Positions 8,618 through 57,823 of a DNA stretch of 64,000 bases are shown here, one piece after another (position 1 is the stretch's first letter; every line of letters begins with the position of its first letter). The notes under the pieces are model-generated. The model searched no databases. It saw only the letters and a list, made by a program, of their open reading frames with translations, and was not told the origin of the DNA. The translations under genes were made by a program, and so were the position numbers. The DNA comes from Candidatus Palauibacter scopulicola. Lineage in GTDB: Bacteria > Gemmatimonadota > Gemmatimonadetes > Palauibacterales > Palauibacteraceae. The stretch is taken from contig NZ_CANPWG010000039.1 of assembly GCF_947581915.1 (NCBI RefSeq), positions 1 to 64,000 of the forward strand, in the 5' to 3' direction.

Positions 8618-8648
8618 CGGCGCGCCGGGCGACGTAACGGAGAAACGG

Positions 8649-38320: not shown

Positions 38321-38683
38321 GTGTCCGACCGCATCGCCCCGAAGGAGTACTACTCGATCGGGGAAGTGTGCGAGATCGCGGATCTCAAGCCGCACGTTCT
38401 GCGCTATTGGGAAACGCAATTCTCGGCGCTTCGCCCCACGAAGAACCGGGCGGGGAACCGGGTGTACCGCCCGAAGCAGATCCAGCTCGTGCAGCTCCTG
38501 CGCCACCTCCTCTACACGGAGCGGTACACGATCGAGGGCGCGAGGCGGAAGCTCGACCAGCTGCGCGCGGGCGGGGAACTCGCGGCGGAGGCGCGCGTGG
38601 CCTGGGACCGGGAGACGATCCGCGACCTCCGGAGGGAGGCCGACGAACTGGTCCGGCTTCTAGAGGACGGCGAGGCCGGGTGA
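38321..38683 (+). CDS. MerR-family transcriptional regulator
   Basis: 120 residues. The winged helix-turn-helix spans residues ~10-80: 'YYSIGEVCEIADLKPHVLRYWETQF', 'RVYRPKQIQLVQLLRHLLY' (read as separate blocks). A short coiled coil follows ('RETIRDLRREADELVRLLED'). There is no ligand-binding cysteine set. GTG start after GGGAAGGGG. This compact MerR type is commonly encoded near housekeeping genes; its target is unknown. It overlaps surE by GTGA. Confidence 0.9.
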   Translation: MSDRIAPKEYYSIGEVCEIADLKPHVLRYWETQFSALRPTKNRAGNRVYRPKQIQLVQLLRHLLYTERYTIEGARRKLDQLRAGGELAAEARVAWDRETIRDLRREADELVRLLEDGEAG

Positions 38684-39447
38684 CCGAAGCGGAAAAACCC
38701 GTCCTCCTGTGCACGAACGACGACGGCGTGAAGTCGACCGGACTCGCGTTGCTCGCCCGCGTGGCGGACGCGTTCGGCGACGTGTGGACGGTGGCGCCGG
38801 ACCGGGAGCAGAGCGCCACGAGCCATGCGCTCTCGCTGTTCCGCCCCCTCCGGCTGACGCGGCTCGGACCGCGACGCTACATGGTGGACGGGACCCCGAC
38901 CGATTGCGTCCTCCTCGCGCTGAAGGAGATCCTCGATGCACGGCCCCGCTTCGTCCTCTCGGGCGTCAATCACGGCCCCAACATGGGAGAGGACGTGCTC
39001 TACTCCGGCACCGTGGCGGCGGCGATGGAGGCGACGATCCTCGGCGTGCCCGCGATCGCCTTCTCGTTCACCGGGAGCGACGACCGCGTCCTCGAGACCT
39101 ACGAGGCGCTGCTCGGTCGGATCATCGCCGCCTGTCTCGACCGGGAGTCCTTTCCGGATGAGACGTTTTTCAACGTCAACCTTCCGGACCGCCCGGCGGG
39201 CCAGGTGAAGGGGATCACGGTGACGGCGCTCGGGCGCCGCGTGTACCACGACTCGCTCCGCCGGATCCACGATGAGGAGGGAACCGAGTACTTCAAGATC
39301 GGAGGAGGACATTCGGCCTGGCGCGGCCGCGAGGATTCCGACTTCCGCGCCGTGCGGGCCGGCTTCGTCTCGGTGACGCCGCTCCACCTGGACCTGACGA
39401 ATTTCGAACTGCTGAACGAGGTGAGGTCGTGGCGGCTGGGAGGCTGA
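38680..39447 (+). CDS. surE: 5'/3'-nucleotidase SurE
   Basis: 255 residues. The N-terminal metal site 'LLCTNDDGVKSTGL' (Asp13/Asp14-type pair) and 'SGVNHGPNMGEDVLYSGTVAAA' (two blocks, ~95-115) are diagnostic, as is 'APDREQSATSHALSL'. It dephosphorylates nucleoside monophosphates. It pairs with pcm downstream, as in E. coli, where the two are linked to stationary-phase survival. Confidence 0.96.
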   Translation: MTEAEKPVLLCTNDDGVKSTGLALLARVADAFGDVWTVAPDREQSATSHALSLFRPLRLTRLGPRRYMVDGTPTDCVLLALKEILDARPRFVLSGVNHGPNMGEDVLYSGTVAAAMEATILGVPAIAFSFTGSDDRVLETYEALLGRIIAACLDRESFPDETFFNVNLPDRPAGQVKGITVTALGRRVYHDSLRRIHDEEGTEYFKIGGGHSAWRGREDSDFRAVRAGFVSVTPLHLDLTNFELLNEVRSWRLGG

Positions 39448-40118
39448 CGGAGCGGGACCCCGCGGCGGACTACCGGCGCGACCGCCGTCGCCTCGTGGAA
39501 CGGCTCCGCGATGGGGGGGTGAGCGACCTGGCCGTCCTGCACGCCTTCGACAGCGTGCCGCGGCACGCGTTCATTCCCGACGTGATGCGCGCCCGCGCCT
39601 ACGAGGATGTGCCGCTCCCCATCGGCCGGGGGCAGACCATTTCGAGCCCCACAATCCACGCCCTCAGCCTCGAATACGCGGAAATCCGGCCCGGTCACCG
39701 CGTCCTGGAAGTGGGGACGGGGGCCGGGTTTCAGACGGCGCTCCTCGCAGCGCTCGGGGCGAGGGTGTACTCCATCGAGCGGATCGCTTCGCTCTACGAG
39801 GCCGCGGCGCGCACGCTGGACCGCCTGGGCGTGGACGCGCGTCTCATGCACGGGGACGGTACCCGGGGCTGGCCGCGTCACGCTCCCTTCCGGGCGATCA
39901 TCGTGGGCGCGGCGGCCGCCGCCCGCCCGCCGGAAGCGCTCTTCAGACAGCTGGCCGATGGAGGCCGCCTGATCGTACCCGTGGGCACGCGACGACAGGA
40001 ACTGCGGCGCTACACGCGACGCGGAGACGATTACGAGAGGGAGACGATCACCGGCGCCCGCTTCGTCCCCCTCATCGAGGATGGACAGCGGGGCGGGCGG
40101 GCCGGGAGGAACCCGTGA
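39429..40118 (+). CDS. pcm: Protein-L-isoaspartate O-methyltransferase
   Basis: 229 residues from GTG 39429, which has GAGG 7 nt upstream and overlaps surE by 19 nt. SAM motif I 'HRVLEVGTGAGFQTALLAAL' near 76-95; family block 'PIGRGQTISSPTIHAL' near 55-70; 'VYSIERIASLYEAA' follows. It repairs isoaspartyl residues in aged proteins. A CTG at 39444 in a CTGA overlap is an alternative start, but a purine block touches it directly, so I prefer the GTG. Confidence 0.94.
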   Translation: MAAGRLTERDPAADYRRDRRRLVERLRDGGVSDLAVLHAFDSVPRHAFIPDVMRARAYEDVPLPIGRGQTISSPTIHALSLEYAEIRPGHRVLEVGTGAGFQTALLAALGARVYSIERIASLYEAAARTLDRLGVDARLMHGDGTRGWPRHAPFRAIIVGAAAAARPPEALFRQLADGGRLIVPVGTRRQELRRYTRRGDDYERETITGARFVPLIEDGQRGGRAGRNP

Positions 40119-41026
40119 GAGCCTGGGCCGGGGTGTACGCGAAGGGCCTCGCCATGGGGCTGGCGGATCTCGTGCCCGGCGTTTCCGGCGGGACGATCGC
40201 CTTCATCTCGGGCATCTACGACGAACTCGTCGCCACGATTGCGGGTCTCGACCGCCGCCTGCTCGGAGCGTTCCGGGAGCGGGGGGTGCGCGGCGCCTGG
40301 CAGGCGGGCAACCTGGGCTTCCTCGCCGTCCTGCTCGCCGGCATCGGCACGAGCGTGTTCGCCTTCGCCGGATTGCTGCACTGGCTGCTCGCGAACCGGC
40401 CCGTGGAGCTGTGGGCCTTCTTCTTCGGCCTCGTGGCGGCGTCGGTCCCGCTCGTCGGCCGGCGGGTCACGGATCGCCGGGCCGGCACCTGGACCCTTGC
40501 CGCCGCCGGGGCCGTACTGGCCGCCGTCGTCACGTCGCTGCCTCCGCTCATCCGCTCCGACGCGCCCCTCTTTCTCGCGGCGGCCGCGGCCGTGGCGGCG
40601 TGCGCGATGATCCTGCCCGGCATCTCCGGCAGCTTCATCCTGCTCATCCTGGGCGCGTACGCTCCCGTGATCGCGGCCCTCGACAGCCTGGATTCCTCAC
40701 GGATCGGGGCCGTGGGCCTCGGGGTCGTCGTCGGCCTGCTCGCGTTCAGCCGCGCCCTGCGCCGCCTCCTCGCGCGCCACCGGAATCCCACGCTGGCCGT
40801 GCTCACGGGGTTTCTCCTCGGCTCGCTCAACGCGCTGTGGCCGTGGAAGGCGCAGATCCGCGAGCTGTACACGCACAGCGATGGCCGCATCGAGTGGCTG
40901 TTGGCGAACCGCTGGCCCGAGGGCGCCGGCGAGATCTGGCCGGCGGCGGCGCTCGCGCTCCTCGGGGCGGCGGCCGTCCTTGCCATCGACCGCATCGCCG
41001 GCGAGCGCGGCCCCGACCGCCCGTGA
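40115..41026 (+). CDS. DUF368 membrane protein, PopT-type undecaprenyl-phosphate translocase
   Basis: 303 residues with about eight membrane helices. Two DUF368 repeats begin with the matching motifs 'LADLVPGVSGGTIAFISG' (~16-33) and 'CAMILPGISGSFILLILG' (~165-182). The family was recently shown to recycle undecaprenyl phosphate across the inner membrane (PopT). Such a role would serve the peptidoglycan and O-glycan genes of this window. GTG start in GTGA overlap with pcm. Confidence 0.9.
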   Translation: MRAWAGVYAKGLAMGLADLVPGVSGGTIAFISGIYDELVATIAGLDRRLLGAFRERGVRGAWQAGNLGFLAVLLAGIGTSVFAFAGLLHWLLANRPVELWAFFFGLVAASVPLVGRRVTDRRAGTWTLAAAGAVLAAVVTSLPPLIRSDAPLFLAAAAAVAACAMILPGISGSFILLILGAYAPVIAALDSLDSSRIGAVGLGVVVGLLAFSRALRRLLARHRNPTLAVLTGFLLGSLNALWPWKAQIRELYTHSDGRIEWLLANRWPEGAGEIWPAAALALLGAAAVLAIDRIAGERGPDRP

Positions 41027-41055
41027 TACTGGTAGCGGCGATCCGCCGTGCCGGG

Positions 41056-41063
41056 TAGCTTCA
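41056..41063 (+). promoter_or_regulatory. Weak candidate promoter box TAGCTTCA
   Basis: TAGCTTCA, sharing TAGCTT with the boxes at 25848 and 52065, lies 49 nt before the preferred ATG of the next gene in a short intergenic gap. The matching upstream TTTG box is poor (CTGG at 41029). Confidence 0.3.
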
Positions 41064-41104
41064 CGCCGTTCGACACCGAGCAGGAAACGAGGAGGGGACG
41101 GCAG

Positions 41105-41800
41105 ATGGCGGACGCGCTCGCCAGCGGAAAACGACCGGACGACGAAGGCGGACGGCAGGATGCCTTCGTGCGGTCCACCTTCCGCCTGGCCACCTGGGTC
41201 AACAGGAACATGCGGGCGGTGCTGGTGGGGGCCGCCGGCATCGCGATGGTCGTCGTGGGTTTCGTGTACTACACGAACTTCCAGGCCTCGGTGCGCGAGC
41301 AGGCGGCGTCCGAACTCGCGACGCTGCGGATGGCCGCCACCGACCCCCAACTCCTCATCGCCGATCTCGAAACCTACGTCGAGCGCTTCGATAACGTCGC
41401 GGCGGCGAACGAAGGCCGGCTTCTCCTTGCGCGGACCTATCTCGACCAGGGGCGGTCCGTGGAGGCCGCACAGGTTGCGAGCACAATCTCGGAGGCGCCG
41501 GACCGTCCGGTCGGACTCGCCGCACGCACGCTCCTCGCGGCGGCACAGGAAGCGTCCGGCGACGCGGAGACCGCGCTCGCCACGTGGGAATCGCTGGGTG
41601 AGACGGCGCGTTTCGCCTTCCAGCGCCGCGAGGCTCGCGCCGCCGCCGCGAGAATCCTCGCGTCCCTCGGCCGTCTCGAGGAAGCCGAGACGATCTTCGC
41701 CGCCATCGCCGAGGAAGCCGCGCGGGAGGACCCGGTGGAGGCCGGCGTCTACCGGCTCCGACTCGGAGAGATCAAGGCCCGCCGCGCCGGCAGCGGGTAA
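41105..41800 (+). CDS. YfgM-like membrane-anchored TPR protein
   Basis: 231 residues from ATG 41105, preceded by AGGAGGGG at 41090-41097 (7-nt spacing). An upstream GTG (41048) lacks such a site and precedes the candidate promoter box. One membrane helix (~40-58, 'VLVGAAGIAMVVVGFVYY') is followed by a TPR domain (~75-225, 'NEGRLLLARTYLDQGRSVEAA', read as two blocks; 'ILASLGRLEEAETIFAAIAE'). The topology, short cytosolic tail and large periplasmic TPR match YfgM-like helpers of the Sec translocon. No family-specific residue proves it. It is the last + strand gene before the terminus site. Confidence 0.75.
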   Translation: MADALASGKRPDDEGGRQDAFVRSTFRLATWVNRNMRAVLVGAAGIAMVVVGFVYYTNFQASVREQAASELATLRMAATDPQLLIADLETYVERFDNVAAANEGRLLLARTYLDQGRSVEAAQVASTISEAPDRPVGLAARTLLAAAQEASGDAETALATWESLGETARFAFQRREARAAAARILASLGRLEEAETIFAAIAEEAAREDPVEAGVYRLRLGEIKARRAGSG

Positions 41801-41947
41801 TCGCCGAACACCTGGCCGGATCCCCGAACATCCGTGGACAGTACTGGGGCTGCCGCACGACCCCCGTAATGGCGCATAAGATATATTATGTAAACTTACA
41901 GGAGGTATCACCTGCCCGCGTATCGTTCTCTCCGTCCTCGTCCCCGC
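41801..41947. other. Convergent intergenic region containing the dif site
   Basis: 147 bp between a + strand gene and a - strand gene. It holds a small inverted repeat (CGGAT 41817-41821 / ATCCG 41830-41834) and an AT-rich island from about 41868 to 41900, unlike the rest of this GC-rich window. The island is the dif site described separately. Downstream 'aggaggtatcacct' is SD-like but no start codon or ORF follows. Confidence 0.8.
41869..41896 (+). other. dif: dif site (XerC/XerD chromosome-dimer resolution site)
   Basis: 28 bp: XerC-type arm ATGGCGCATAA (41869-41879), 6-bp centre GATATA (41880-41885), XerD-type arm TTATGTAAACT (41886-41896). The right arm is identical to the B. subtilis dif XerD arm and matches 9 of 11 bases of the E. 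coli arm. The left arm shares GCGCATAA with E. coli dif. Gene orientation flips exactly here, and GGGNAGGG motifs noticed on each side point toward it. In known bacteria such a site marks the replication terminus, where FtsK-driven Xer recombination separates joined sister chromosomes. Confidence 0.93.
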
Positions 41948-44230
41948 CTAGAAGGTGAAGGTGTGGGAGTATTTCACCATGAGCGCGCGCCCGGACGAGA
42001 ACGGGAGGCGCGGGTCGACGCCGCCGTTGGTGCGGTCCATGAAGTAGCCCTCGTTGTAGACCACCCACAGATCCACGCCCTCGCGGAAGTGGTAGCGGAA
42101 GCGCGCGTTGACGCTCACCTGGTCCGTCGTCGAGTTGTACTGGGCGAGCGTGCTCAGCGAGAGGTGCGTGTCGAGCGCGAAATCCAGGTTGAGTCTCGCG
42201 AGGTGCGTCGTCAGGAAGTCCCGGTTCGGCAACTCGAAGCGGTTGACGTCGTAGCTCGGGCGGATCTCGAAGTGCCGGGAGAGATTCAGCGCCGGACTCA
42301 GGCGGAGACTCACGCGGCGACCGTCGTAGAAGCTGCCGGCCGAACCGCCGATTTCCCCCCGCACGAGGCCGCCGCGCGAGAGCCGGAGGGAGGCATCGGC
42401 TTCGTGGAACCAGTATTCCCCCGGGTCGATCGTCAGGCCCGCGATCCCGAACGGGTTCCGGATGCTCTCGAAGCTCGAACGGGACGTGAGCATCAGGAAC
42501 GTTCCCGACTTCATGCCGATCATCACCTGAGGAGCGATAACTCGTGATTCCGGCGTGAGATCCACGTTCCTGTAGTAGTGCTGTGTGTCGCCGCTGAGCG
42601 TCACGGCGCGGAGCGCCGAGTTGGCGCCCATGAACCAGGAATAGCCAGCCGATCCGCCGAACAGCGTGAACTCGTTCCGCAGCTGGAAGCCCAGGCGCGG
42701 CAGATAGTCCCCTCCCACGCGGCGATACTGGGCGCTGTAGGCGAACCCCTCCTGCCTCCTCCGCTCGAACTGCGCGAAGAAGGACCCCGCGTCGAGCGGG
42801 TTCCGCTCCGCGACATCGTCATCGAAGGACTGGGCCCAGCGCAGCGTCAGGTATTCGTCCCCGAACACCCGCACCTCGCTGTCCGCCCCGTACGCCACGT
42901 TCGTCTTGCCGTACGCATCGACGCGCGTGGTGACGATGCCGCCGACGGAAGAATTCTGGTTGAAGACCTGCTGCTTGAGCCGCAGCACGCCCATGTTCTC
43001 GCCCGGCCGCCCGACTGCGGGGGCCGTCTGCATGTTCAGCAGGCCGAAGTCGAGCCCGCCGGCCCGGCCCACCACGCGCGCACCCCCGTAGATGCGGACG
43101 AGTTCGCCGCGGTCCAGCCCGATCCGGCGGCTGAAGAAGACGCGGTCGGTGACGCCGCCGGTGGCAAAGTCGAAGGTCGCCGAGCGTTCCTGGAAGAACT
43201 GCCGTTTCTCCGGGAAGAAGAGGGGGAACCGCGTGACATTGATCTGCTGGTCGTCCGCCTCCACCTGGGCGAAGTCGGTGTTCGCCGTGAGGTCGATCGA
43301 CAGGTTCGACGAGGGCGAGTACTTGAAGTCGAGGCCCGGTTCCCCGGTGGGGTCGTCCATCGTCTCCCAGTACGCCCGCACGTCCGGCGGTTCTCGCAGC
43401 GTCGGGATCTGCGTCATCCCTCCGAGGACGTACGGCGTCACGTAGATCGGGTTCGCGCGATTCACGCCCCGGAAGGTGACCCGTTGCGCCAGCGACGGTT
43501 TGCCGAAGCCGAAAAAGCCGTACTCGGGCGAGATGTCGGGGTAGACGTGGCGCTCGTTCTTCCGCGAAATCGAGCGGTAGACGGTGAGCCCCATCGTCAC
43601 TTCCCCGCCCGTATTCTGGAACCCGAGCGTCGAGAACGGGATCCGCATCTCCGCCGACCAGCCGTCGTTCGTCCGCTGGACGGCGCCGTCCCAGTGCGCG
43701 TTCCAGTCGCTGTTGAAGGGCCGGGTGCCCGCCGTCCACTCCGCATCGCCCCAAACCGCGCGGTCGGACCGCGCGCCGTTGGGGTTCACCACGAAGGACA
43801 CGGCCGTCTCGTGGTCGTTGTAGCTGTCGATCACGACCGAGAACTGGTCGTCGCCGCTGAACCCGTCGCGAGCGAAGCTGTTCGCCCGGATCCCGCCGAG
43901 GTCCGAATCGAACAGCTGCCCCGAGACATACAGGTACGCGTCATCGTACGCGATCCGGATCCGCGTCTCCTCGGTAGGGGCCTGGCCGTAAGTGGGCGAA
44001 TACACCACGAGCGGCACGGGGTCGATGTCCAGCCACGCGGGTTCGTCGACGAAGCCGTCGATGTCGATCTGCCCCTGCCCGTCGAGCCGGTGGAGAGGCA
44101 CCGGGGGCTTCCCGCGCCCGCCGTCCTGCGCGGCCGCGGCGACCGGCGCCAGCGCCGTGAGCATGGCGCACAGCCACAGCGCCGTCCGCGCGGAGGATCC
44201 CGCTTCCCTGCCCGTCGCGCGCAGCTTCAC
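41948..44230 (-). CDS. DUF5916 outer-membrane protein, paralogue 1
   Basis: 760 residues from GTG 44230 (GTGA overlap with paralogue 2). The signal peptide then begins MKLRATG and ends near 'APVAAAAQ'. An N-terminal CBM9-like beta-sandwich (~30-235; 'QIDIDGFVDEPAW', 'LYVSGQLFDSDLGGIRAN', 'WSAEMRIPFSTLGFQ') precedes a DUF5916 beta-barrel (~260-760) ending in phenylalanine ('VKYSHTFTF'), the usual outer-membrane signature. Shared block 'NTDFAQVEADDQQINVTRF' is near residue 325. The family's function is unknown; carbohydrate binding or uptake is plausible. It is the gene next to dif. Confidence 0.88.
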   Translation of the reverse strand: MKLRATGREAGSSARTALWLCAMLTALAPVAAAAQDGGRGKPPVPLHRLDGQGQIDIDGFVDEPAWLDIDPVPLVVYSPTYGQAPTEETRIRIAYDDAYLYVSGQLFDSDLGGIRANSFARDGFSGDDQFSVVIDSYNDHETAVSFVVNPNGARSDRAVWGDAEWTAGTRPFNSDWNAHWDGAVQRTNDGWSAEMRIPFSTLGFQNTGGEVTMGLTVYRSISRKNERHVYPDISPEYGFFGFGKPSLAQRVTFRGVNRANPIYVTPYVLGGMTQIPTLREPPDVRAYWETMDDPTGEPGLDFKYSPSSNLSIDLTANTDFAQVEADDQQINVTRFPLFFPEKRQFFQERSATFDFATGGVTDRVFFSRRIGLDRGELVRIYGGARVVGRAGGLDFGLLNMQTAPAVGRPGENMGVLRLKQQVFNQNSSVGGIVTTRVDAYGKTNVAYGADSEVRVFGDEYLTLRWAQSFDDDVAERNPLDAGSFFAQFERRRQEGFAYSAQYRRVGGDYLPRLGFQLRNEFTLFGGSAGYSWFMGANSALRAVTLSGDTQHYYRNVDLTPESRVIAPQVMIGMKSGTFLMLTSRSSFESIRNPFGIAGLTIDPGEYWFHEADASLRLSRGGLVRGEIGGSAGSFYDGRRVSLRLSPALNLSRHFEIRPSYDVNRFELPNRDFLTTHLARLNLDFALDTHLSLSTLAQYNSTTDQVSVNARFRYHFREGVDLWVVYNEGYFMDRTNGGVDPRLPFSSGRALMVKYSHTFTF

Positions 44231-46527
44231 CAGATGAAGGTGTGGGAGTATTTGATCATGATGTTTCGCCCCGCCGACCACGGCAGCCTCGGATCGAGCC
44301 CCCGGTCCCGTTCGAAGTTGAACCCTTCATTATACACAATCCAGAGGTCCGTGCCCTCCCTGAAGTGATAGCGGAAGCGCGCGTTGACGCTCGTCCGCTC
44401 GTCGAGGTTGTTGTACTGCGCGAAGGCGCTGAACGAGATGTGCGTGTTGAAGGCGAAGTTCAGCCGCAGCCGGCCCAGGTGCGTCGTCGTCGCTTCGCCC
44501 CGGTCGGGGAACTCGAGCCGGTTCACCTCGTAGCCCCCGACGACCTCCAGGTAGCGGGAGACGGTCCACGTGGGGTTGAAGATGAGACCCACGCGCCGCC
44601 CATCGTAGAAGCTCCCCGCCGTCGTCCGGATGTCACCGCGGAAGATCGTGCTGCGCGGCAGCTGCCAGTCGATCCCGGCCTCCGTGAACCGGTGTTCCCC
44701 CGGCACGATGGACACCGCGCCGACCGAAAACGGCCTCCGGATGTCCTCGATCTGGCTGTTCGCGTAGGCCGTGATCATCGCGGTCGACTTGAATTCGAGC
44801 CGCACCTCGGGACGGACCGAGCGGGACTCGAGGGTGAGGTCGACGTTGCGCTGGTAGTTCTCGCCCACCAGCGCCAGGGTGATGGCGTTCAGCGTCGCGT
44901 CGGCCCCGCGGAGCCAGGTATGGGCCAACTCGCCGCCGAACAGCGTGAAGTCGTTCCGGAGCTGAAAGCCGAGGCGCGGCAGGTAGTCCGGGCCCACGCG
45001 CCGGTAGAAGAGATTGTAGGAGACGCCGCGATCCGTCCGCCGCTCCCAGCGCGCCCGCACAAGGCTCGCGTCGAGCACGTTGCGCTCCCTGACCACCTCG
45101 TCCTGCGTCTGCGCCCAGGTGAGCGTCAGGTATTCGTCCCCGAACAGGCGCAGTTGCGAATCCAGGCCGTAGGCGACGTTGTTCCGGCCGTTGGAGCCGT
45201 AGCGGGTCGTGAGGATCCCGCCGACGAACGAATACGGATTGAGCACCTGCTGCTTGAGGCGCATGACGCCCATGTTCTCGCCCGACCGCCCCGCGGTCGG
45301 CGCCGTCTGCATGTTGAGGATCCCGAAGTCCAGGCCCGCCAGCCGGCCGACGAGCCTCGCGCCGCCGTAGATGCGGACGAGTTCGCCCGCTTCGAGCCCA
45401 ATACGGCGGCTGAAGAACACGCGGTCGGTGAACCCTCCCGTCCCGAAATCGAAGGTCGAGGAGCGTTCCTGGAAAAACTGCCGTTTCTCGGGGAAGAAGA
45501 GCGAGAACCGGGTGAGGTTCACCTGCTGGTCGTCCGCCTCCACCTGCGCGAAGTCCGTGTTGACGGTGAGGTCGATCGCCAGATTCGACGAGGGGGAGTA
45601 CTTGAGGTCGACGCCCGGCTCCGCCACCCGATCCCGCTCCGTCCCCCAGAAGGAGGCGGCGTCCGACGGTTTCCTGAGCACCGGCGTCCGGCTCAAGCCC
45701 CCGAGCACGTACGGGGTCACGTAGGCCGGCGTCGTGGGCCGCACGCCGCGCAGCGTCATGCGCTGGCCCTGCGACGGCTTCAGGAAGCCCCCCTGCCCCC
45801 ATTCGCGGCCGATGAACGGGAAGACGTGGCGCTCGTTCTTCCGGGCGATGAAGCGGTAGACGATGATCCCCATCGTCACCTCGTCCCCCTGCGCCTGGAA
45901 GCCGAGCGTGGAGAACGGGACCCGGTATTCCGCGAACCAGCCCTCGTCGTTCCGCGACGTGACGACCTGCCAGTGGGCGTTCCAGTCCACGTTGAACGGC
46001 ATCACGTCGCCCGTGAAGTCGCCGTCGTTGGAGAGCGAGCGATCCTGGCGGACGCCGGCGGGCGTGGTCCCGAGCCAGGCCCCGGTCTCGTAGTCGTTGT
46101 AGCTGTCGACCACGAACGAGAGGAGATCGTCGCCGCTGAACGCATCCCGGAGGTAGGTGTTCGCCCGAATGCCCTCGGGGTTCGAGTCGTACATCCGTCC
46201 GGAGAGGTAGAGGTATTCGTCATCGTGGGCGATCCGTACCTCGGTCTGCTCCGTCATCTCGCCCCCGTGGTTGGGGGCCCACATGAACATCGGGAGCGGC
46301 TCGATCGCATCCCAGGCCGGCTCGTCGACGACGCCGTCAACGTCGATCTCCCCCGCGAGCCGGGGGATGGGAACGGGAACGGGCGAGCGGAATCCCGCCG
46401 CATCGATCTGGCCGGAGGTTCCGGTTTGCGCGGAGAGCGCGGGCGCCGCCGGCAGGCAGACCGCCACGATCCACGCGCACCGCGTCGCGAGTTGCCGAGA
46501 TGGACGGCCGATGTGGGTCAACGGCAT
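44227..46527 (-). CDS. DUF5916 outer-membrane protein, paralogue 2
   Basis: 766 residues. Signal peptide ~1-33 ('CLPAAPALSAQ'). Same architecture as its neighbours: CBM9-like domain ('EIDVDGVVDEPAWDAIEPLP', 'LYLSGRMYDSNPEGIRAN') and a C-terminal barrel ending in tryptophan ('IKYSHTFIW'). It is visibly closer to paralogue 3 than to paralogue 1, e.g. 'TTPAGVRQDRS' and 'ERRTDRGVSYNL' occur in both 2 and 3. A 124-bp gap separates it from paralogue 3, and it is coupled to paralogue 1. Confidence 0.9.
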   Translation of the reverse strand: MPLTHIGRPSRQLATRCAWIVAVCLPAAPALSAQTGTSGQIDAAGFRSPVPVPIPRLAGEIDVDGVVDEPAWDAIEPLPMFMWAPNHGGEMTEQTEVRIAHDDEYLYLSGRMYDSNPEGIRANTYLRDAFSGDDLLSFVVDSYNDYETGAWLGTTPAGVRQDRSLSNDGDFTGDVMPFNVDWNAHWQVVTSRNDEGWFAEYRVPFSTLGFQAQGDEVTMGIIVYRFIARKNERHVFPFIGREWGQGGFLKPSQGQRMTLRGVRPTTPAYVTPYVLGGLSRTPVLRKPSDAASFWGTERDRVAEPGVDLKYSPSSNLAIDLTVNTDFAQVEADDQQVNLTRFSLFFPEKRQFFQERSSTFDFGTGGFTDRVFFSRRIGLEAGELVRIYGGARLVGRLAGLDFGILNMQTAPTAGRSGENMGVMRLKQQVLNPYSFVGGILTTRYGSNGRNNVAYGLDSQLRLFGDEYLTLTWAQTQDEVVRERNVLDASLVRARWERRTDRGVSYNLFYRRVGPDYLPRLGFQLRNDFTLFGGELAHTWLRGADATLNAITLALVGENYQRNVDLTLESRSVRPEVRLEFKSTAMITAYANSQIEDIRRPFSVGAVSIVPGEHRFTEAGIDWQLPRSTIFRGDIRTTAGSFYDGRRVGLIFNPTWTVSRYLEVVGGYEVNRLEFPDRGEATTTHLGRLRLNFAFNTHISFSAFAQYNNLDERTSVNARFRYHFREGTDLWIVYNEGFNFERDRGLDPRLPWSAGRNIMIKYSHTFIW

Positions 46528-46651
46528 GTCCCCAGGGTCGGGGGTGGCACCGGGAAGGTCTGCTCGCCGAAGAGAACACCCCGGCGAGTCCGGGGGTTCA
46601 ATCCCGGCGGCGGAGGGCGCGTCGGCCGCCGAGTGGCCGGCGCCCCCCAGG
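46528..46651. other. Intergenic region between DUF5916 paralogues 2 and 3
   Basis: 124 bp. CCGGG (46590-46594 region) and CCCGG around 'ggttcaat' give a short GC hairpin. I see no ORF and no convincing promoter for paralogue 2. Co-transcription from paralogue 3 is possible. Confidence 0.5.
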
Positions 46652-48970
46652 CTACCAGCTGAAGGTGTGCGAGTACTTGATCATGACGTTGCGCCCGGCC
46701 GACCAGGGCAGCCTCGGATCGAATCCCCGTTCGCGGTCGAAGTTCAGCCCCTCGTTGTACACGATCCAGAGGTCCGTTCCCTCCCGGAAGTGATAGCGGA
46801 AGCGGGCGTTGATGCTCATGCGCTCGTCGAGGTTGTTGTACTGCGCGAAGGTGCTGAACGAGACCTGCGGATTGAGGGCGAAGGCGAGTCGCACCCGGGC
46901 GAGTTGCGCGGTCGCCGCCTCGCCCCGGTTCGGAAACTCGATCCGGTTAACCTCGTAGCCACCGCCGACCTCCAGGTAACGGGACACGCTCCACATCGGG
47001 TTGAAGATCAGGCCCGCCCGCCGGCCGTCGTAGAAGCTCCCCACGGTGGTCCTGATGTCTCCGCGGAAGATCGCGGTGCGCGGCAGCATCCAGTCGATAC
47101 CCACTTCCCGGAACCAGTACTCCCCCGCAGGGATCGAGAGGCCGGTGACGCGAAACGGCGTCCGGATGTCCTCGAACTGCGTGTTCGAATACGCCGCAAT
47201 CCGCGACCCCGACTTGAAGGCGAGTTCCAGTTCGGGGCGGATCGATTGGGACTCCGGCGTGACGTCGGCGTTCCGATAGTAGCTCTCGCCCATGACCGAC
47301 AGCGTGACGGTGTTCAGCGAAGCGCTCGGACCCCGAAGCCAGGTGTGGCCGACCTCGCCGCCGAAGAGCGTGAAGTCGCTCCGCAACTGGAAGCCGAGCC
47401 GCGGCGTGTAGTCGGGGCCCACGCGCCGGTAGTAGAGGTTGTACGACACGCCGCGGTCCGTTCTCCGCTCCCACCGCACGCGGAACAGCCCCGCGTCGAG
47501 CGGATTCCGCTCGTTCACCGCCTCGTCGAACGTCTGCGCCCAGGTGAGCGTCACCCACTCGTTGCCGAGGGGGCGGATCTGCGTGTCCACGCCGTAGGCG
47601 ACGTTGTCCTGGCCGTTCCCCCCGAGCCGGGTCGCCACGATCCCCCCGACGAAGGAGTACGGATTGAACACCTGCTGCTTTACCCGCATCACGCCGACGT
47701 TTTCTCCCGAGCGCCCTCCCGCGGGAGCCGTCTGCATGTTCAGGAGCCCGTAGTCCAGTCCGCCCATGCGGCCAACGACCCGCGCGCCTCCATAGATCCG
47801 CACCAGTTCCCCGCCTTCGAGGCCGACCCTCCGGCTGAAGAAGACGCGGTCCGTGAAGCCGCCGGTCCCGAAGTCGAAGGTCGACGACCGTTCCTGAAAG
47901 AACTGCCGTTTCTCCGGGAAGAATAGCGAGAAGCGGGTGAGGTTCACCTGCTGCTCGTCCGCCTCCACCTGGGCGAAGTCGGTGTTGACCGTGAGATCGA
48001 TGGCCAGGTTGGACGATGGCGAATACTTGAGATCGACGCCCGGTTCCGTGGTCCGGTCCTGTTCCGTCGCCCAGTAGGCGGCCGCGTCCGCGGGCTCGCG
48101 CAGCACCGGCGTCCGGCGCAGGCCGCCGAGCGCGTACGGGGTCACGTAGACCGGCGCGGTGGGCCGGACTTCGCGCAGCGTCACGCGCTGCGTCTGCGAC
48201 GGCTTCATGAAGGCGAGCCGGCCCCACTCGCGCGCGATCGGGGGGTATACCTGGCGTTCGTTCTTCCGGCCGATGTAGCGATAGATGGTGATCCCCATCG
48301 TCACCTCATCGCCCTCCGCCTGGAATCCCAGCGTCGAGAACGGGATGCGGAACTCCGCGAACCACCCTTCCCCGTTGCGGGTCGTCTGGACGTCCCAGTG
48401 CGCGTTCCAGTCCTCGTTGAAGGGCGGGAGGTCGCCGCTGAACTCGGCGTCGTTGGAAATCGAGCGGTCCTGCCGGACTCCGGCCGGGGTCGTGCCGAAC
48501 CAGAGCGCCGTCTCGTAGTCGTTGTAGCTGTCGATCACGAACGAGAACAGGTCGTCGCCGCTGTAACTATCACGATAGAAGGTGTTTACGCGGATTCCGT
48601 CCGGGTTCGAATCGTACATCCGTCCGGAGACGTAGAGGTACCGGTCATCGTGCGCTAGACGGATCTCCGTCCGTTCCGTCTGCTCGCCGCCGTGGGTGGG
48701 CGACATGATGAAGAGGGGAAGCGGGTCGATCGTCTCCCACACGGGTTCGTTCACGACCCCGTCCACGTCGATCGTCTCGGAGATGCGGGGGATGGGTATC
48801 GGAGCGCCGGGCCGGAGCACCGCAACGTCCACCTCATCGGCGGCGTTGGCCTGGGCCGCGAGCCCCGACGCCGTACACACGGCCGCCAGGACGACGCCGA
48901 ACAGGGCCTTCGCGAGCCGGTCGCCGCGCACGGACAGCCTCCTCCGCATATCTCGCCGCGGTTGGGTCAT
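46652..48970 (-). CDS. DUF5916 outer-membrane protein, paralogue 3
   Basis: 772 residues from ATG 48970, in an ATGA overlap with the ion channel gene; an internal ATG seven codons later would give a tighter signal peptide (cleaved near 'ASGLAAQ'). CBM9-like domain ('TIDVDGVVNEPVWETIDPLP', 'LYVSGRMYDSNPDGIRVN') followed by the DUF5916 barrel ending 'IKYSHTFSW'. It shares the block 'LTVNTDFAQVEADEQQVN' with its neighbours. It is the first of the three in transcription order. Confidence 0.9.
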   Translation of the reverse strand: MTQPRRDMRRRLSVRGDRLAKALFGVVLAAVCTASGLAAQANAADEVDVAVLRPGAPIPIPRISETIDVDGVVNEPVWETIDPLPLFIMSPTHGGEQTERTEIRLAHDDRYLYVSGRMYDSNPDGIRVNTFYRDSYSGDDLFSFVIDSYNDYETALWFGTTPAGVRQDRSISNDAEFSGDLPPFNEDWNAHWDVQTTRNGEGWFAEFRIPFSTLGFQAEGDEVTMGITIYRYIGRKNERQVYPPIAREWGRLAFMKPSQTQRVTLREVRPTAPVYVTPYALGGLRRTPVLREPADAAAYWATEQDRTTEPGVDLKYSPSSNLAIDLTVNTDFAQVEADEQQVNLTRFSLFFPEKRQFFQERSSTFDFGTGGFTDRVFFSRRVGLEGGELVRIYGGARVVGRMGGLDYGLLNMQTAPAGGRSGENVGVMRVKQQVFNPYSFVGGIVATRLGGNGQDNVAYGVDTQIRPLGNEWVTLTWAQTFDEAVNERNPLDAGLFRVRWERRTDRGVSYNLYYRRVGPDYTPRLGFQLRSDFTLFGGEVGHTWLRGPSASLNTVTLSVMGESYYRNADVTPESQSIRPELELAFKSGSRIAAYSNTQFEDIRTPFRVTGLSIPAGEYWFREVGIDWMLPRTAIFRGDIRTTVGSFYDGRRAGLIFNPMWSVSRYLEVGGGYEVNRIEFPNRGEAATAQLARVRLAFALNPQVSFSTFAQYNNLDERMSINARFRYHFREGTDLWIVYNEGLNFDRERGFDPRLPWSAGRNVMIKYSHTFSW

Positions 48971-49875
48971 TCGAGCAGTTCGGTGCCGCAGTGCTTGCAG
49001 TGGCGCGCATCCGGATCGTGGCCGGACCTGGCGCAGCGCAGGCAGACCCGCTCCATGGCGGCGCGCATTCTCGCGTCACGGCCGCCCGTGATCTCGGCCG
49101 TCACGATGCCCGTCGGGACTGCGATCACGCCGTACCCCAGGATCATGAGGAGCGCGGCGAGCATCTGTCCCGTCGTGGTCTGCGGCGTGATGTCGCCGAA
49201 GCCCACCGTCGTCACGGTCACAATGGCCCAGTAGACGCCCCGGGGGATGCTGCTGAAGCCCGAGTCGGCGCCCTCGATCACGTACATCGCCGCGCCCACG
49301 AGCGTCACCACGACGAGCACCGCGACGATGAAGACGGCGACCTTGTAGGCGCTGGAGCGCAGCGCGTTGATCAGGAGTCGCTCTCCCCCCACGAACTGGG
49401 CGAGCTTCAGGACCCGGAACACGCGCAGCACCCGCAGCAGGCGGATGACGGCGAGCGCCTGTCCTCCCGGGATCAGCAACCCCACGAAGTTGGGCAGAAC
49501 GGCGAGCAGGTCGATGACCCCGAAAAAGGAACGGGCGTATTGGCCGGCCCGCTCCGCCGCGACGAGGCGGAGTATGTACTCGGCCGTGAACAGCGCCGTG
49601 AACACCCATTCGAGCGTCCACAGCAGGCTCCGAGCGCGAACGTTGAAATCCTGCACGCTCTCGAGCATCACGACGACCACGCTGGCCAGGATGACGCCGA
49701 TGAGGCTGAGGTCGAAGAGCCGGCCGCCGCGAGTCAGGTTGCCGAAGATGATGCGGTGGGTCTCGCACCTCCACTGCGGTCGCTTCGAGAAGACCGGATG
49801 GTTGTCGTAGTCGATCGCCGGACGCGCGGGTTCCCGCCGGGACGGGAAGTACGACATCGTCCGGTTTCTGGCCAT
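48967..49875 (-). CDS. Voltage-gated-type potassium channel with C-terminal zinc ribbon
   Basis: 302 residues from ATG 49875 (TGATG overlap with the glycosyltransferase). Six membrane helices; S4 has regularly spaced arginines (RLLRVLRVFRVLKLAQF, ~145-161). Selectivity filter TVTTVGFGDI near 232. After S6 comes a short cytosolic tail ending with CxxC...CxxC (CLRCARSGHD and CKHCGTELLE, ~279-302), a zinc-ribbon-like module in place of an RCK domain. Likely K+ conduction. The ribbon's role is unknown. An upstream extension of the frame is shadow sequence. Confidence 0.92.
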   Translation of the reverse strand: MARNRTMSYFPSRREPARPAIDYDNHPVFSKRPQWRCETHRIIFGNLTRGGRLFDLSLIGVILASVVVVMLESVQDFNVRARSLLWTLEWVFTALFTAEYILRLVAAERAGQYARSFFGVIDLLAVLPNFVGLLIPGGQALAVIRLLRVLRVFRVLKLAQFVGGERLLINALRSSAYKVAVFIVAVLVVVTLVGAAMYVIEGADSGFSSIPRGVYWAIVTVTTVGFGDITPQTTTGQMLAALLMILGYGVIAVPTGIVTAEITGGRDARMRAAMERVCLRCARSGHDPDARHCKHCGTELLE

Positions 49876-50663
49876 CACAGCCTCCCGATGAGGGACCGCA
49901 GCCGCAGCGCCCACACCCGCCACACCGCCTCGCGCACGATGGCCCCCGACATCTTGCTCTGTCCGAGGCGGCGGTCCGTGAACACGATGGGGACTTCCCC
50001 GACCCGGAACCCCTTCTTCCATGCCCGGAAGTTCATCTCGATCTGGAACGTGTACCCGGTCGATCCTACGCGGTCGAGGTCGATCGCCTCCAGTACGCGG
50101 CGCGTGAAGCACTTGAAGCCGCTCGTGGAGTCGGCGAGGCGCAGTCCCGTGGCGATGCGCGCGTACTTGTTCGCGTAGTAGCTGAGGAGCAGGCGCGACA
50201 TCGGCCAGTTGATGACGTTCACCCCCGCGGTATAGCGGGAGCCGACGACGACATCGAAGCGGCCGGTCGCGGCGATCATATCGGGAATATAGCGCGCGTC
50301 ATGCGATCCGTCGGCGTCCATCTCGAAGATCCACTCGAAATCCCGCTCGAGCGCCCAGCGGAAACCGGCGATGTAGGCGGTCCCGAGCCCCAGCTTCCCC
50401 TCCCGGTGCAGCACGTTCACGCGCGGTTCCGCCGCGGCGAGCGAGTCGACGAGAGCACCGGTCCCGTCGGGCGACGCATCGTCGACGACGAGGACCGAGA
50501 GCCGGCGGTCCTGCGCCAGCACGCCCTCGACGATCCCGGCGATGGAATCGACCTCGTTGTACGTGGGCAGGATGACGAGACCCCGCTCGCTGCCTGTGGG
50601 GACGGCGGCGATCAGGTCCTCGTCGGAATCCGCCGAGGGAGTGGGGGACGTGTCCGGGCTCAT
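49875..50663 (-). CDS. GT2 family polyprenol-phosphate sugar transferase (DPM1-like)
   Basis: 262 residues. A disordered acidic N-terminus (~1-25) precedes the GT-A fold: 'LVILPTYNEVDSIAGIVEGV', 'VLVVDDASPDGTGALVD' (~56-72), the metal-binding 'FEMDADGSHD' (~112-121), 'VVGSRYTAGV', and 'DSTSGFKCFTRRVLEAI'. This pattern is that of single-domain polyprenol-monophosphomannose synthases without membrane helices. It would load a sugar, probably mannose, on a lipid carrier for GT39-type enzymes such as the one at 58789. Confidence 0.92.
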   Translation of the reverse strand: MSPDTSPTPSADSDEDLIAAVPTGSERGLVILPTYNEVDSIAGIVEGVLAQDRRLSVLVVDDASPDGTGALVDSLAAAEPRVNVLHREGKLGLGTAYIAGFRWALERDFEWIFEMDADGSHDARYIPDMIAATGRFDVVVGSRYTAGVNVINWPMSRLLLSYYANKYARIATGLRLADSTSGFKCFTRRVLEAIDLDRVGSTGYTFQIEMNFRAWKKGFRVGEVPIVFTDRRLGQSKMSGAIVREAVWRVWALRLRSLIGRL

Positions 50664-50685
50664 GGCAGCCGGAATTTACGTCGGC

Positions 50686-52017
50686 TCAGGAATCGCAGAA
50701 ACCAACGGCAGTGTTTTCGATTACCGACCGAATTCCCTCCACGCCGAGCGCGCGCCCGAAGAACATCGCTTCGTCGATCTCTCCCTCGAACTCCACCTCC
50801 AATGCGTCGTCCGAGAACCCCTCCTCGCTTCGCGATCCGATGCCGACGGGCCCGTCGGTCGGGTTGATGCTCCCGGCGCGGTGCGTCCCCTGCGCTTCTC
50901 CGTTGACGTAGAACGTGAGGCGCTGGCCGTCCCAGGTCATGGCCAGGTGGGTCCACTCGCCGGCGACAAGGCGCGGTCCGTAGACCCTCGCGTCTCCGCC
51001 GAAGCCGGGCCGCACTCTGAGGACCGACCTCCACCGGCCGTTGTGGTTGTCGAGCAGCCACGACTCCTGCCAGGGGTGTCCCTTTCCGAGGGCGGTGCCG
51101 CTGCCGCTGGCCTCGTCCGGTCCCGGTTTGGCCCACGCCATGACGGAGAACGGCCCCGCCGGCTTGAGGGTGGGCGCGTTCGGCACGAGCGCGATCGCAT
51201 CCACGCCATCGAAGGAGAAGGCCTCCCCGGCGCCGGGAACGCCCTCGGCGTAGCCCGCTCCGTGCATGAGCGTCGCGTCCACGCCCCCGATACGGTCGGC
51301 GCCGCTGCCTTCGCCCGACCACCAGTGCAGGATGCCTCCCGGAACCGCGCAGACCGCCAGTTCGAAGCTCTGCCGGGCTTCGGCTTCTTCGTGGTCCCGC
51401 GCCGTCACCGTCGCCTCCGCCGTGCCCCGCGAGAGCCCGACCATGGTCAACTCGCTCCCGGCAACGGAGACCCCCGCTACGAGCGGGTCGGATGAGGCAG
51501 CACTGTAGGTCAGGGCATCGCCTTCCGGATCGGTGAAGTAACCGGAGACATCGATGGTCTCCGTACCGCCCGTGACCAGCGTCCGTGAGGCGATCTCGCT
51601 CACGGGCGTCGGCGCCAGGTTCGGAACCGTCACGGAGAACGACAGACTGGCCTCCCCACCCCTCCCGTCGCTCGCGGTGACGGTGGCCGATGCCGCACCC
51701 CGGGACACGGCGATGAGGATCAACCGCGCGCCGGACACCGCGGCCTCCGCGACGAGCGTGTCGGACGATGCGGCGCCGTATGTCAGTGCGTCGCCATCCG
51801 GATCCCGGAAGAACTGCGAGAGGTCCACTGTGGCGTTCGTGCCGGCGACAATGGATTGCGCCGGAATGGCACCCGTGGCCTCGGGCGCCCGGTTCTCCGG
51901 GGGCGCCGGGGGTGCCGGGTCGGGATCCACGACGAGACTGTCCCCTCCCCCGCAACCGACAACCACGGCAAGGGTCAGAAGGCGCGGAGGCGCGATACGC
52001 GACACTGGACGGGCCAT
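50686..52017 (-). CDS. Putative lipoprotein with two cadherin-like repeats and a LamG domain
   Basis: 443 residues from ATG 52017 (GTG 52023 is an alternative; GAGGAGG lies upstream). The N-terminal signal 'LLTLAVVVGCGGG' has a lipobox-like VVGC, so a lipoprotein is likely. A Pro-rich linker is followed by two matching ~90-residue Ig/cadherin-like repeats ('SQFFRDPDGDALTYGAASSD' and 'SGYFTDPEGDALTYSAASSD'). A C-terminal laminin-G/concanavalin domain (~225-440: 'FSVMAWAKPG', 'EWTHLAMTWDGQRLTFYVNG', 'GEIDEAMFFGRAL') closes it. Surface carbohydrate or protein binding is plausible. First gene of the - strand cluster. Confidence 0.88.
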   Translation of the reverse strand: MARPVSRIAPPRLLTLAVVVGCGGGDSLVVDPDPAPPAPPENRAPEATGAIPAQSIVAGTNATVDLSQFFRDPDGDALTYGAASSDTLVAEAAVSGARLILIAVSRGAASATVTASDGRGGEASLSFSVTVPNLAPTPVSEIASRTLVTGGTETIDVSGYFTDPEGDALTYSAASSDPLVAGVSVAGSELTMVGLSRGTAEATVTARDHEEAEARQSFELAVCAVPGGILHWWSGEGSGADRIGGVDATLMHGAGYAEGVPGAGEAFSFDGVDAIALVPNAPTLKPAGPFSVMAWAKPGPDEASGSGTALGKGHPWQESWLLDNHNGRWRSVLRVRPGFGGDARVYGPRLVAGEWTHLAMTWDGQRLTFYVNGEAQGTHRAGSINPTDGPVGIGSRSEEGFSDDALEVEFEGEIDEAMFFGRALGVEGIRSVIENTAVGFCDS

Positions 52018-52040
52018 GGCCACCCTCCCCTCCTCGGACG

Positions 52041-52072
52041 TTTGGCAGCCTGTCGGTCGCTGCGTAGCTTTG
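52041..52072 (+). promoter_or_regulatory. Bacteroidota-type promoter, TTTG-N20-TAGCTTTG
   Basis: TTTG at 52041-52044 and TAGCTTTG at 52065-52072 match the Bacteroidota housekeeping consensus (TTTG, 19-21 nt, TAnnTTTG) at every defined base. It lies in the divergent gap before the + strand methyltransferase-wecB-GT4 unit. Transcription would begin near 52079, giving a leader of about 138 nt. Confidence 0.7.
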
Positions 52073-52130
52073 GGGTTCGTATCCTCAAACCAGCATCAGG
52101 TTCCCCGCCCGCGACTCGGCCGGCGGCCCA

Positions 52131-52155
52131 GGTCGCCTCGGCATTCCAGGCGACC
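52131..52155 (+). other. Perfect hairpin in the 5' leader of the methyltransferase-wecB unit
   Basis: GGTCGCCT (52131-52138) and AGGCGACC (52148-52155) form a perfect 8-bp stem with a 9-nt loop, midway between the promoter and the start codon. It could be an attenuator or protein-binding element. No known riboswitch pattern is recognised. Confidence 0.5.
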
Positions 52156-52216
52156 CCGCCGGTTCCGCCGTCCCCACACATTTCGGGCGCGGAGTCGTGC
52201 GAGAAAGGAATAGTCG

Positions 52217-52999
52217 GTGGCATCCCCGCTCCGCAAATCGTCCCCCGAGGCTGGACCCGCCGAGGGCGACGTGCGCCGGGCGGGGTTGCTCGCCTCGCTC
52301 GTCCGCGCCCTCCACCGCCGCCTGCCCGGCCTCGTGGGCGGGGCCAGGCGCATCGTGTACCGGACCCCGCTGCTGCGGAACGTCATGCTGCCGACGTATC
52401 CGTACTGGGTGGATCCGGGGGTACTGGCAGCGATGGTGGGCCTCATCGAAGCCACGCGAGGGACGGGAGGGGCCGTGGTGGAGATCGGCGTCGGCCGCGG
52501 CGACAGTTCGGTGTTCATCCTCGAACATCTGTCGACGACCGGCGATCCGCGCGACCTGGTGCTGGTGGACACGTTCGACGGCTTCACGCCGGAGAGCATC
52601 GCGCATGAGACCGGCGAGCGGGGCAAGACGAGGTCGGAGATCTCGGACTATACCTACCTGGACCGCCGGGTGTACGAACACGGTCTCTCGCGCCTGGGCT
52701 ACTCGAATTTCCGCATCGTCGAGGGCGACTGCGCGCAGGTGGACTGGGCGGACGTCACGGGCCCGGTCGGCGCGGTGCTGCTGGACGTGGACCTCTACAT
52801 GCCCACTCGGCACGTGCTCGATGCGATCTGGCCCCTCGTCGTCCCCGGCGGCGGATTCGTCCTCGATGACTGCATCGAACCGAACTGGGCGGACGGCGCC
52901 CTCCAGGCCTACTCCGAATTCACGGACCGCCACGGCTTGCCGTTCACCAGGGTCGGGCGCAGCGGCGGGCTCATCGTTAAGCAGGCCGACGAAGAATGA
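52217..52999 (+). CDS. TylF/MycF-family SAM methyltransferase
   Basis: 260 residues from GTG 52217 with AAAGGAA ~7 nt upstream. SAM motif I 'GAVVEIGVGRGDSSVFILE' (~86-104), 'LVLVDTFDGF' (~113-122), and a metal/acid region 'VGAVLLDVDLYMPTRHVLD' then 'GGGFVLDDC', as in macrocin O-methyltransferases. It probably methylates a sugar hydroxyl. Co-encoded with wecB and a GT4 (ATGA overlap), so the target is likely a surface glycan. Confidence 0.88.
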   Translation: MASPLRKSSPEAGPAEGDVRRAGLLASLVRALHRRLPGLVGGARRIVYRTPLLRNVMLPTYPYWVDPGVLAAMVGLIEATRGTGGAVVEIGVGRGDSSVFILEHLSTTGDPRDLVLVDTFDGFTPESIAHETGERGKTRSEISDYTYLDRRVYEHGLSRLGYSNFRIVEGDCAQVDWADVTGPVGAVLLDVDLYMPTRHVLDAIWPLVVPGGGFVLDDCIEPNWADGALQAYSEFTDRHGLPFTRVGRSGGLIVKQADEE

Positions 53000-54156
53000 C
53001 CACGGTGCCGCGAATCCTGATCGTGATCGGGACCCGTCCGGAGGCGATCAAGATGGCGCCGGTCCATGAAGCGCTTTGTCGCCTCGCACCGGCGCTGGAA
53101 ACGAAGGTCGCGCTGAGCGGGCAACACCTGGACCTCGTGGAGCCGGCCATCGACGTCTTCGGCATCGTGCCGGACTACCGGCTGAACGTGATGCGGGAAG
53201 GCCAGGACGTGGCGGATGTCGTGAGCCGCGTGCTCCGGGACCTGCGTACCATCCTGCGCGAAGCCGCGCCGGACGTCCTCCTCGTGCAGGGCGACACGGC
53301 GACGGTGTTCGCCGCTTCGCTGGCCGGGTTCCTCGAGAAGGTGAAGGTGGGGCACGTGGAGGCGGGACTCCGGAGTCACGACCGCTACGCGCCCTTCCCC
53401 GAGGAGATCCTGCGCCGCCTCACGGATGTCGCATCCGAGTACCATTTCGCCCCGACGATCCGGGCGCGTGACGAGTTGCTGCGAGAGAACACCTCGCCGG
53501 ACACGGTGTTCGTCACCGGGAATACGGTGGTCGACGCCCTGCTCTCCGTCGCCCGGCGCGAACGACCTGTAAGGGATCCTTCCCTGGCGGAGATCCGGTC
53601 GCGGGTCCGGGGCGGCGAGGCGCGGCTCGTGCTCTTGACCGCGCATCGCCGCGAGGCTTTCGGCCCTCCTCTCACCGAGATCTTTCGGGCCGTGCGGGAC
53701 GTGGCCGATGCACACCTCGATGTGTGCGTGCTCTATCCCGTCCATCCCAACCCGAACGTGCTCGTGCCGGCGCGTGAGTCGCTGGCGGACCACCCGCGCA
53801 TCCACCTCACGGAGCCGCTCGACTACCTGGACCTCGTAGCGGCGCTGGAATCCGCGGCGCTCGTGATGACCGATTCCGGCGGCATTCAGGAGGAGGCGCC
53901 GACGTTCGCCACGCCGGTCCTCGTATTGCGGGATGTCACGGAGCGTCCGGAGGGAGTGGAGGCCGGCGTCGCCGAACTCGTCGGCACGGATCGCCGGCTC
54001 ATCGCGGAGCGTGCCCGTGCGGCCCTGTCTCGTGAGCCCGGCCGTGAACCGCCCCGCAATCCATACGGGGACGGGCGAGCGGGCGAGCGGATCGCGGACA
54101 TCCTGGCCGCGGACCTGCTCGGACGGACGCGCCGACTCGAGGATTGGACCGGATGA
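52996..54156 (+). CDS. wecB: UDP-N-acetylglucosamine 2-epimerase (non-hydrolysing)
   Basis: 386 residues. It converts UDP-GlcNAc to UDP-ManNAc. The N-terminal 'ILIVIGTRPEAIKMAPV' (~7-23), 'VQGDTATVFAASLAGFLEKVKVGHVEAGLRS' (in blocks, ~97-125), 'VTGNTVVDAL' and 'LTAHRREAFGPPL' (~210) are diagnostic; 'VMTDSGGIQEEAPTF' near 290 closes the active site. WecC, the following dehydrogenase, is not in the window, so ManNAc itself may be the product used. Confidence 0.95.
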   Translation: MTTVPRILIVIGTRPEAIKMAPVHEALCRLAPALETKVALSGQHLDLVEPAIDVFGIVPDYRLNVMREGQDVADVVSRVLRDLRTILREAAPDVLLVQGDTATVFAASLAGFLEKVKVGHVEAGLRSHDRYAPFPEEILRRLTDVASEYHFAPTIRARDELLRENTSPDTVFVTGNTVVDALLSVARRERPVRDPSLAEIRSRVRGGEARLVLLTAHRREAFGPPLTEIFRAVRDVADAHLDVCVLYPVHPNPNVLVPARESLADHPRIHLTEPLDYLDLVAALESAALVMTDSGGIQEEAPTFATPVLVLRDVTERPEGVEAGVAELVGTDRRLIAERARAALSREPGREPPRNPYGDGRAGERIADILAADLLGRTRRLEDWTG

Positions 54157-57724: not shown

Positions 57725-57823
57725 GCATGGCACCGCCAATCATCGCCTTACCTCAGGCCTGTTCACACTGCGCCCAACGTACCTGCCAGCCCGGGGCAAC
57801 TCCACTGCGCTTCGGCTTCGCGA

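Follow-up and report, generated by a model that had tools for sequence, protein, structure and literature searches.

The 28-mer at 41869-41896 of the DNA analysed here is very probably dif, the XerC/XerD chromosome dimer-resolution site. Taking all of the evidence as a whole, the best explanation, to which we assign a probability of about 0.96, is that a Gemmatimonadota bacterium of the genus Candidatus Palauibacter has its chromosomal dif here, with dimers resolved via XerC/XerD and FtsK/KOPS. The window examined comprises bases 1-64000 of a contig (C39) of 124,291 bases, from a genome (G000) assembled in 79 contigs. Dif is a common, standard bacterial feature, and what is described here is an ordinary, well-supported dif in a little-studied group. 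The first-pass annotation had named it correctly, and none of the three findings that it named as speaking against this reading (no skew switch near the site, KOPS equally mixed on the two sides, or a better dif elsewhere) was obtained. The site is made up as follows.

41869-41896, + strand: dif, 28-bp XerCD recombination site, single copy in the genome, conserved over its 28 bp in an alignment of 30 family loci.
41869-41879, + strand: XerC-type arm ATGGCGCATAA, from the sequence; hardly any variation at positions 3-11 within the family.
41880-41885, + strand: 6-bp central region GATATA, from the sequence; where the 28 bp vary most.
41886-41896, + strand: XerD-type arm TTATGTAAACT, from the sequence; nearly invariant in the family.

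The two 11-bp arms have CATAA/TTATG in common, inverted around GATATA, giving the inner inverted repeats and 6-bp centre of a dif site; the letters and coordinates originally read for the arms and centre match the sequence exactly. With 8/28 G+C the site alone is the lowest in G+C of all 28-mers in this GC-rich window. The core CGCATAAN6TTATGTNAA, allowing up to three mismatches, is matched once in the window against 0.02 matches expected by chance. The full 28-mer, also with up to three mismatches, is matched once in the 3.6-Mb genome, and there is thus no better dif elsewhere in the assembly; the reversed 28-mer, used as a control under the same conditions, gave no match in the genome.

A search for the 28-mer in related genomes, as had been proposed at the outset, shows the core in 31 of the 35 family genomes, 30 of which have exactly one site with at most two mismatches. 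Two additional weak matches are seen in G029 in the same search. When 30 family loci are aligned on dif, the 28 bp carry 1.67 bits of information per position, as against 0.19 and 0.21 for the 40 bases flanking them, and the conservation begins and ends with the 28 bp, as for a unit conserved in its own right. Outside the 28 bp, [AT]GCG, four bases after the XerD arm, is weakly conserved among the family loci (L120-L149). Two dif-like sites, at 777056-777078 and 3732204-3732226, are found on one gapped 4.1-Mb contig of another genome (G307:C1), with xerD adjoining the second only.

The proteins that would act at the site are all encoded in the genome; locating their genes had been suggested in the first reading. 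Among five tyrosine recombinases, XerD matches TIGR02225 with 334.7 bits, above the cut-off of 329.6, and XerC has TIGR02224 as its best-matching family with 309.4 bits, below the cut-off of 335.2. The R-K-HxxR-H-Y residues are visible in both. The xerC gene directly adjoins a gene with a product resembling the C-terminus of topoisomerase I (the neighbour was read by eye), and in one-contig genomes it lies 0.3-1 Mb from dif. FtsK is encoded with its DNA-reading gamma domain (FtsK_gamma, E 4.7e-29).

Dif lies in a convergent intergenic gap, 68 bases after the end of a + strand gene at 41800 and 51 bases before the end of a - strand gene at 41948. The genes of the window to which we refer are:

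38368-39447, + strand: SurE-family gene of the left block (Pfam PF01975); G115 has its ortholog 4.6 kb to the left of dif.
39429-40118, + strand: protein-L-isoaspartate methyltransferase gene of the left block (Pfam PF01135); G115 and G307 have orthologs to the left of dif.
40115-41026, + strand: undecaprenyl-phosphate translocase-like gene (Pfam PF04018).
41048-41800, + strand: TPR protein gene, the last of the left arm (Pfam PF09976).
41948-44281, - strand: DUF5916/CBM9 gene, the first of the right arm (Pfam).
62251-63678, - strand: rpoN (sigma-54), in the conserved right-arm block (Pfam); collinear in six families.

In the window the GC-frame gene caller places 22 + ORFs and one - ORF left of dif, the latter (8090-8893) being a doubtful call that overlaps + candidates. 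To the right all calls are on the - strand up to 52023, followed by three + genes at 52217-55277, after which the - strand resumes. The flip in gene orientation reported at the site is therefore real, although the - orientation does not extend throughout the right arm. Three consecutive large - strand DUF5916/CBM9 genes (41948-48970) lie between dif and the block conserved across the class, and among the genomes compared this run is found in genus members only. At the other end of the window, where the contig itself ends, positions 1-482 belong to the 3' part of a 16S rRNA gene. The sibling assemblies G023, G025, G026 and G034 likewise start some 41.7-42.2 kb to the left of dif, which is what breakage of assemblies at an rRNA operon would produce.

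The cumulative GC skew, computed over the whole 124,291-base contig, reaches its maximum 1,575 bases left of dif, so that the switch anticipated near the site does occur. One-contig relatives were sampled in addition. The maximum lies less than 3 kb from dif in G000 itself and in G008, G016, G026, G027 and G030, and 7-11 kb from it in G025 and G031, and in G010 it falls at the edge of the sampled stretch; a change of sign across dif is seen in G113, G115, G228, G229, G306 and G307. As the source genome is split into 79 pieces, the position of dif relative to dnaA comes from relatives. The distance from dnaA to dif is 45%, 42% and 51% of the chromosome in G115, G113 and G229, respectively, which are gapless, with no N in the stretches read. 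The one-contig assemblies of G010 and G307 give dnaA-dif distances of only about 15% and 19%, but both contain gap-sized runs of N, making the order unreliable, and G010 was rejected as a complete-genome test on account of the N gaps in its samples. The site marks the terminus region; calling it the replication terminus, as was done initially, goes too far as regards the exact endpoint. 'Terminus region' is the safer wording because forks have been argued to end near dif rather than exactly there (PMC3025954). Besides an ordinary dnaA, a second protein of 587-624 aa with two Bac_DnaA domains in one frame is encoded in G113 (C1:1693244-1694866), G114 (C1:1714214-1715791) and G115 (C1:1881586-1883166).

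KOPS-type octamers in the window, from a full count, are distributed as follows.

1565-38314, + strand: 16 copies of GGGNAGGG in the left arm, directed toward dif, starting at 1565, 3081, 13575, 15052, 19950, 24495, 26278, 26986, 27822, 29306, 30243, 31599, 34804, 36953, 36958 and 38307.
26203 and 28191: two left-arm octamers in the wrong orientation.
44073-63057, - strand: ten octamers in the right arm (CCCTNCCC on the + strand), directed toward dif, starting at 44073, 44206, 45791, 48365, 51943, 52023, 53392, 54971, 62056 and 63050.

All 16 forward octamers in the window are thus left of dif, with the 12 reverse ones divided into 10 on the right and 2 on the left, and within the window the right arm has no KOPS-type octamer pointing away from dif. 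The 11 GGGNAGGG and 5 CCCTNCCC positions listed from the initial inspection are all real. Over the whole contig the forward to reverse counts are 16:2 left and 4:34 right of dif; with 50 of 56 octamers pointing toward the site and 6 away, the two orientations are far from equally mixed. Nine family contigs have 265 copies of GGGNAGGG directed toward dif and 42 away, and ten genomes of other families 155 and 23. Much octamer bias follows gene direction, however, and inside co-directional genes many other G-rich and codon-derived octamers are as polar as GGGNAGGG, the codon-derived ones even more so. This could mean that the polarity of GGGNAGGG is a by-product of the G bias of coding or leading strands, with FtsK using another guide or none at a site that would still be dif, and the octamer is also rarer in the source genome than the same pattern read backwards (882 versus 1319 occurrences). 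For this reason the polarity was recounted, using approximate gene calls, in intergenic DNA and in genes transcribed against the direction of replication. Here GGGNAGGG keeps a ratio of 80:12 (87% polarity), rank 3 of 21,684 one-gap octamers, whereas the order-swapped control GGGANGGG falls to 86:36 (70%), rank 404; Fisher's test gives p 0.005 for the difference, although the pooled genomes are related and the counts are not independent. The octamers therefore converge on dif from both arms, as KOPS do, independently of gene direction, and a mere by-product of G bias would seem unlikely. The recount supports KOPS-type guidance toward dif by the predicted GGGNAGGG octamers. Another candidate, GAGNAGGG, was rejected as a guide octamer, having hardly any polarity (157:134).

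The same observations bear on two other readings of the site. An AT-rich palindrome arising by chance, such as a terminator, might be expected between convergent genes, which is where the 28-mer lies, but only 0.02 core matches are expected by chance, no terminator pattern was found at the locus, and the footprint, a 28-bp block conserved within diverged flanks, refutes such an origin, leaving it a negligible probability. Mobile elements that exploit Xer (IMEX, pdif modules) use dif-like 28-mers and could leave an attachment or pdif-type site that is not the chromosomal dif; the two dif-like sites on one contig of G307 might be viewed in this light. In the source genome the 28-mer is a single copy with no flanking second site. 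Its gene neighbours on both sides are the same across the genus, many having orthologs in other families, and both skew and KOPS converge on it, making a mobile-element origin very improbable. The chromosomal dif remains the reading that we adopt.

The single-copy site, its 28-bp conservation, the genes for XerC, XerD and FtsK-gamma, the skew switch and the octamers that converge on the site whatever the gene direction are direct observations; recombinase binding, activation and strand exchange at dif are modelled on E. coli. By that analogy XerC would bind the left arm and XerD the right arm. Where recombination between sister chromosomes leaves a dimer, septal FtsK would load on the GGGNAGGG octamers and translocate from both arms toward dif, where its gamma domain would activate XerD. 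XerD and then XerC would exchange strands across the 6-bp centre, resolving the dimer.

The E. coli dif shares with this site the 6-bp centre, GCGCATAA in the XerC arm and TTATGT in the XerD arm, with the outer bases differing, and the KOPS of E. coli are likewise GGGNAGGG octamers converging on dif. The B. subtilis dif, the target of CodV/RipX, has the same XerD arm TTATGTAAACT but another left arm, and the guide consensus of B. subtilis, GAGAAGGG, falls outside GGGNAGGG. Kono et al (2011; PMC3025954) have already predicted a dif in one Gemmatimonadetes genome, with the same result from Proteobacteria as from Chlorobi profiles. That site is in the same phylum and is also a 28-bp XerCD-type dif, but comes from another genus; added here are dozens of relatives, the footprint, the KOPS polarity and the neighbourhood of xerD.

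The xerD gene itself lies on the same contig, beyond the window:

73483-74346 of C39 (G000): xerD, 31.6 kb right of dif.

It is found 16-37 kb from dif in 61 Gemmatimonadota genomes of six families (f1, f2, f3, f4, f7 and f9), always on the side of the XerD arm and transcribed toward dif (distances computed by hand). In G060 xerD (C1:517181-518044) is on the other side of dif (572770-572792), 55.6 kb away and still pointing at it, a placement that suggests a local inversion. In G010, which is gapped, the two are 338 kb apart on the same contig, and in G198 xerD is on another contig though the dif contig extends about 105 kb in either direction from the site. The many genomes with xerD and dif on different short contigs are uninformative for linkage. 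In E. coli, unlike here, xerD is far from dif. Of the genomes from other groups (mostly Proteobacteria), 27 are informative, with 36 kb or more of contig on either side of dif. None of these has xerD as close to dif, and no relevant report of xerD-dif linkage in Gemmatimonadota was found in open-access papers.

The right arm is collinear in the six families, with rpoN, an ABC ATPase gene, a DAHP-synthetase-family gene (kdsA-like), pyrG and xerD, followed by ispF, a purE-like gene, fabF, acpP, fabG and a plsX-like gene. This housekeeping block, from rpoN to the plsX-like gene, occupies about 54000-82000 of C39, within 40 kb of dif and partly in the window. On the left arm the SurE and isoaspartate methyltransferase genes are common to other families. 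In pairwise comparisons of four genomes, the 40 kb to the right of dif contain 27-37 genes, of which 11-24 are reciprocal best hits, as compared with 6-12 in 40 kb at xerC and 4-8 in 40 kb at dnaA. In these four genomes and against these two control loci, the terminus side is more collinear than the neighbourhoods of dnaA or xerC, which we regard as a lead.

Dif thus lies where two old gene blocks converge, with xerD one of many genes kept there; the proximity of xerD to dif across the class is probably due to the collinear housekeeping block that contains it. Alternatively, selection for Xer function could maintain the linkage, for instance because XerD is made close to its target or because its gene is duplicated late, in which case, in most of the Gemmatimonadetes families tested, dif would border an unusually stable terminus block with xerD held near by selection. 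The constant side and direction of xerD in 61 genomes of six families, its orientation in G060 even from the opposite side, and the lack of such closeness in the 27 outside genomes would fit this. Yet rpoN, the ABC ATPase, kdsA-like gene, pyrG, ispF, fabF, acpP, fabG and the plsX-like gene are conserved alongside xerD, and in G198 the gene is away from dif altogether. Selection on the linkage is therefore doubtful, both as the cause of the proximity and as a description of these families, and a functional module of xerD and dif was set aside, the collinear block sufficing as an explanation. The XerS/difSL and XerH/difH modules also have the recombinase gene near its site, and a review gives such closeness as a possible hallmark of single-recombinase systems (PMC5357621). 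They use one recombinase, XerS being encoded immediately adjacent to its site, whereas here there are both XerC and XerD, with xerD 16-37 kb away in a housekeeping block; at 31.6 kb in the source genome, a single-recombinase Xer module was discarded as a description of this locus. Were selection on the linkage to hold, a gene-near-site layout described as a single-recombinase hallmark would occur in a two-recombinase system.

Identification of dif fixes the terminus region of a Palauibacter-type chromosome that is known from fragments, and the dif, skew and KOPS signals together can be used for orienting and checking assemblies. The proximity of xerD to dif across the class, and a terminus neighbourhood conserved at least as well as that of dnaA (four genomes), are small questions that can now be tested. 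The layout of dif, XerCD and FtsK-KOPS worked out in Proteobacteria also holds in Gemmatimonadota.
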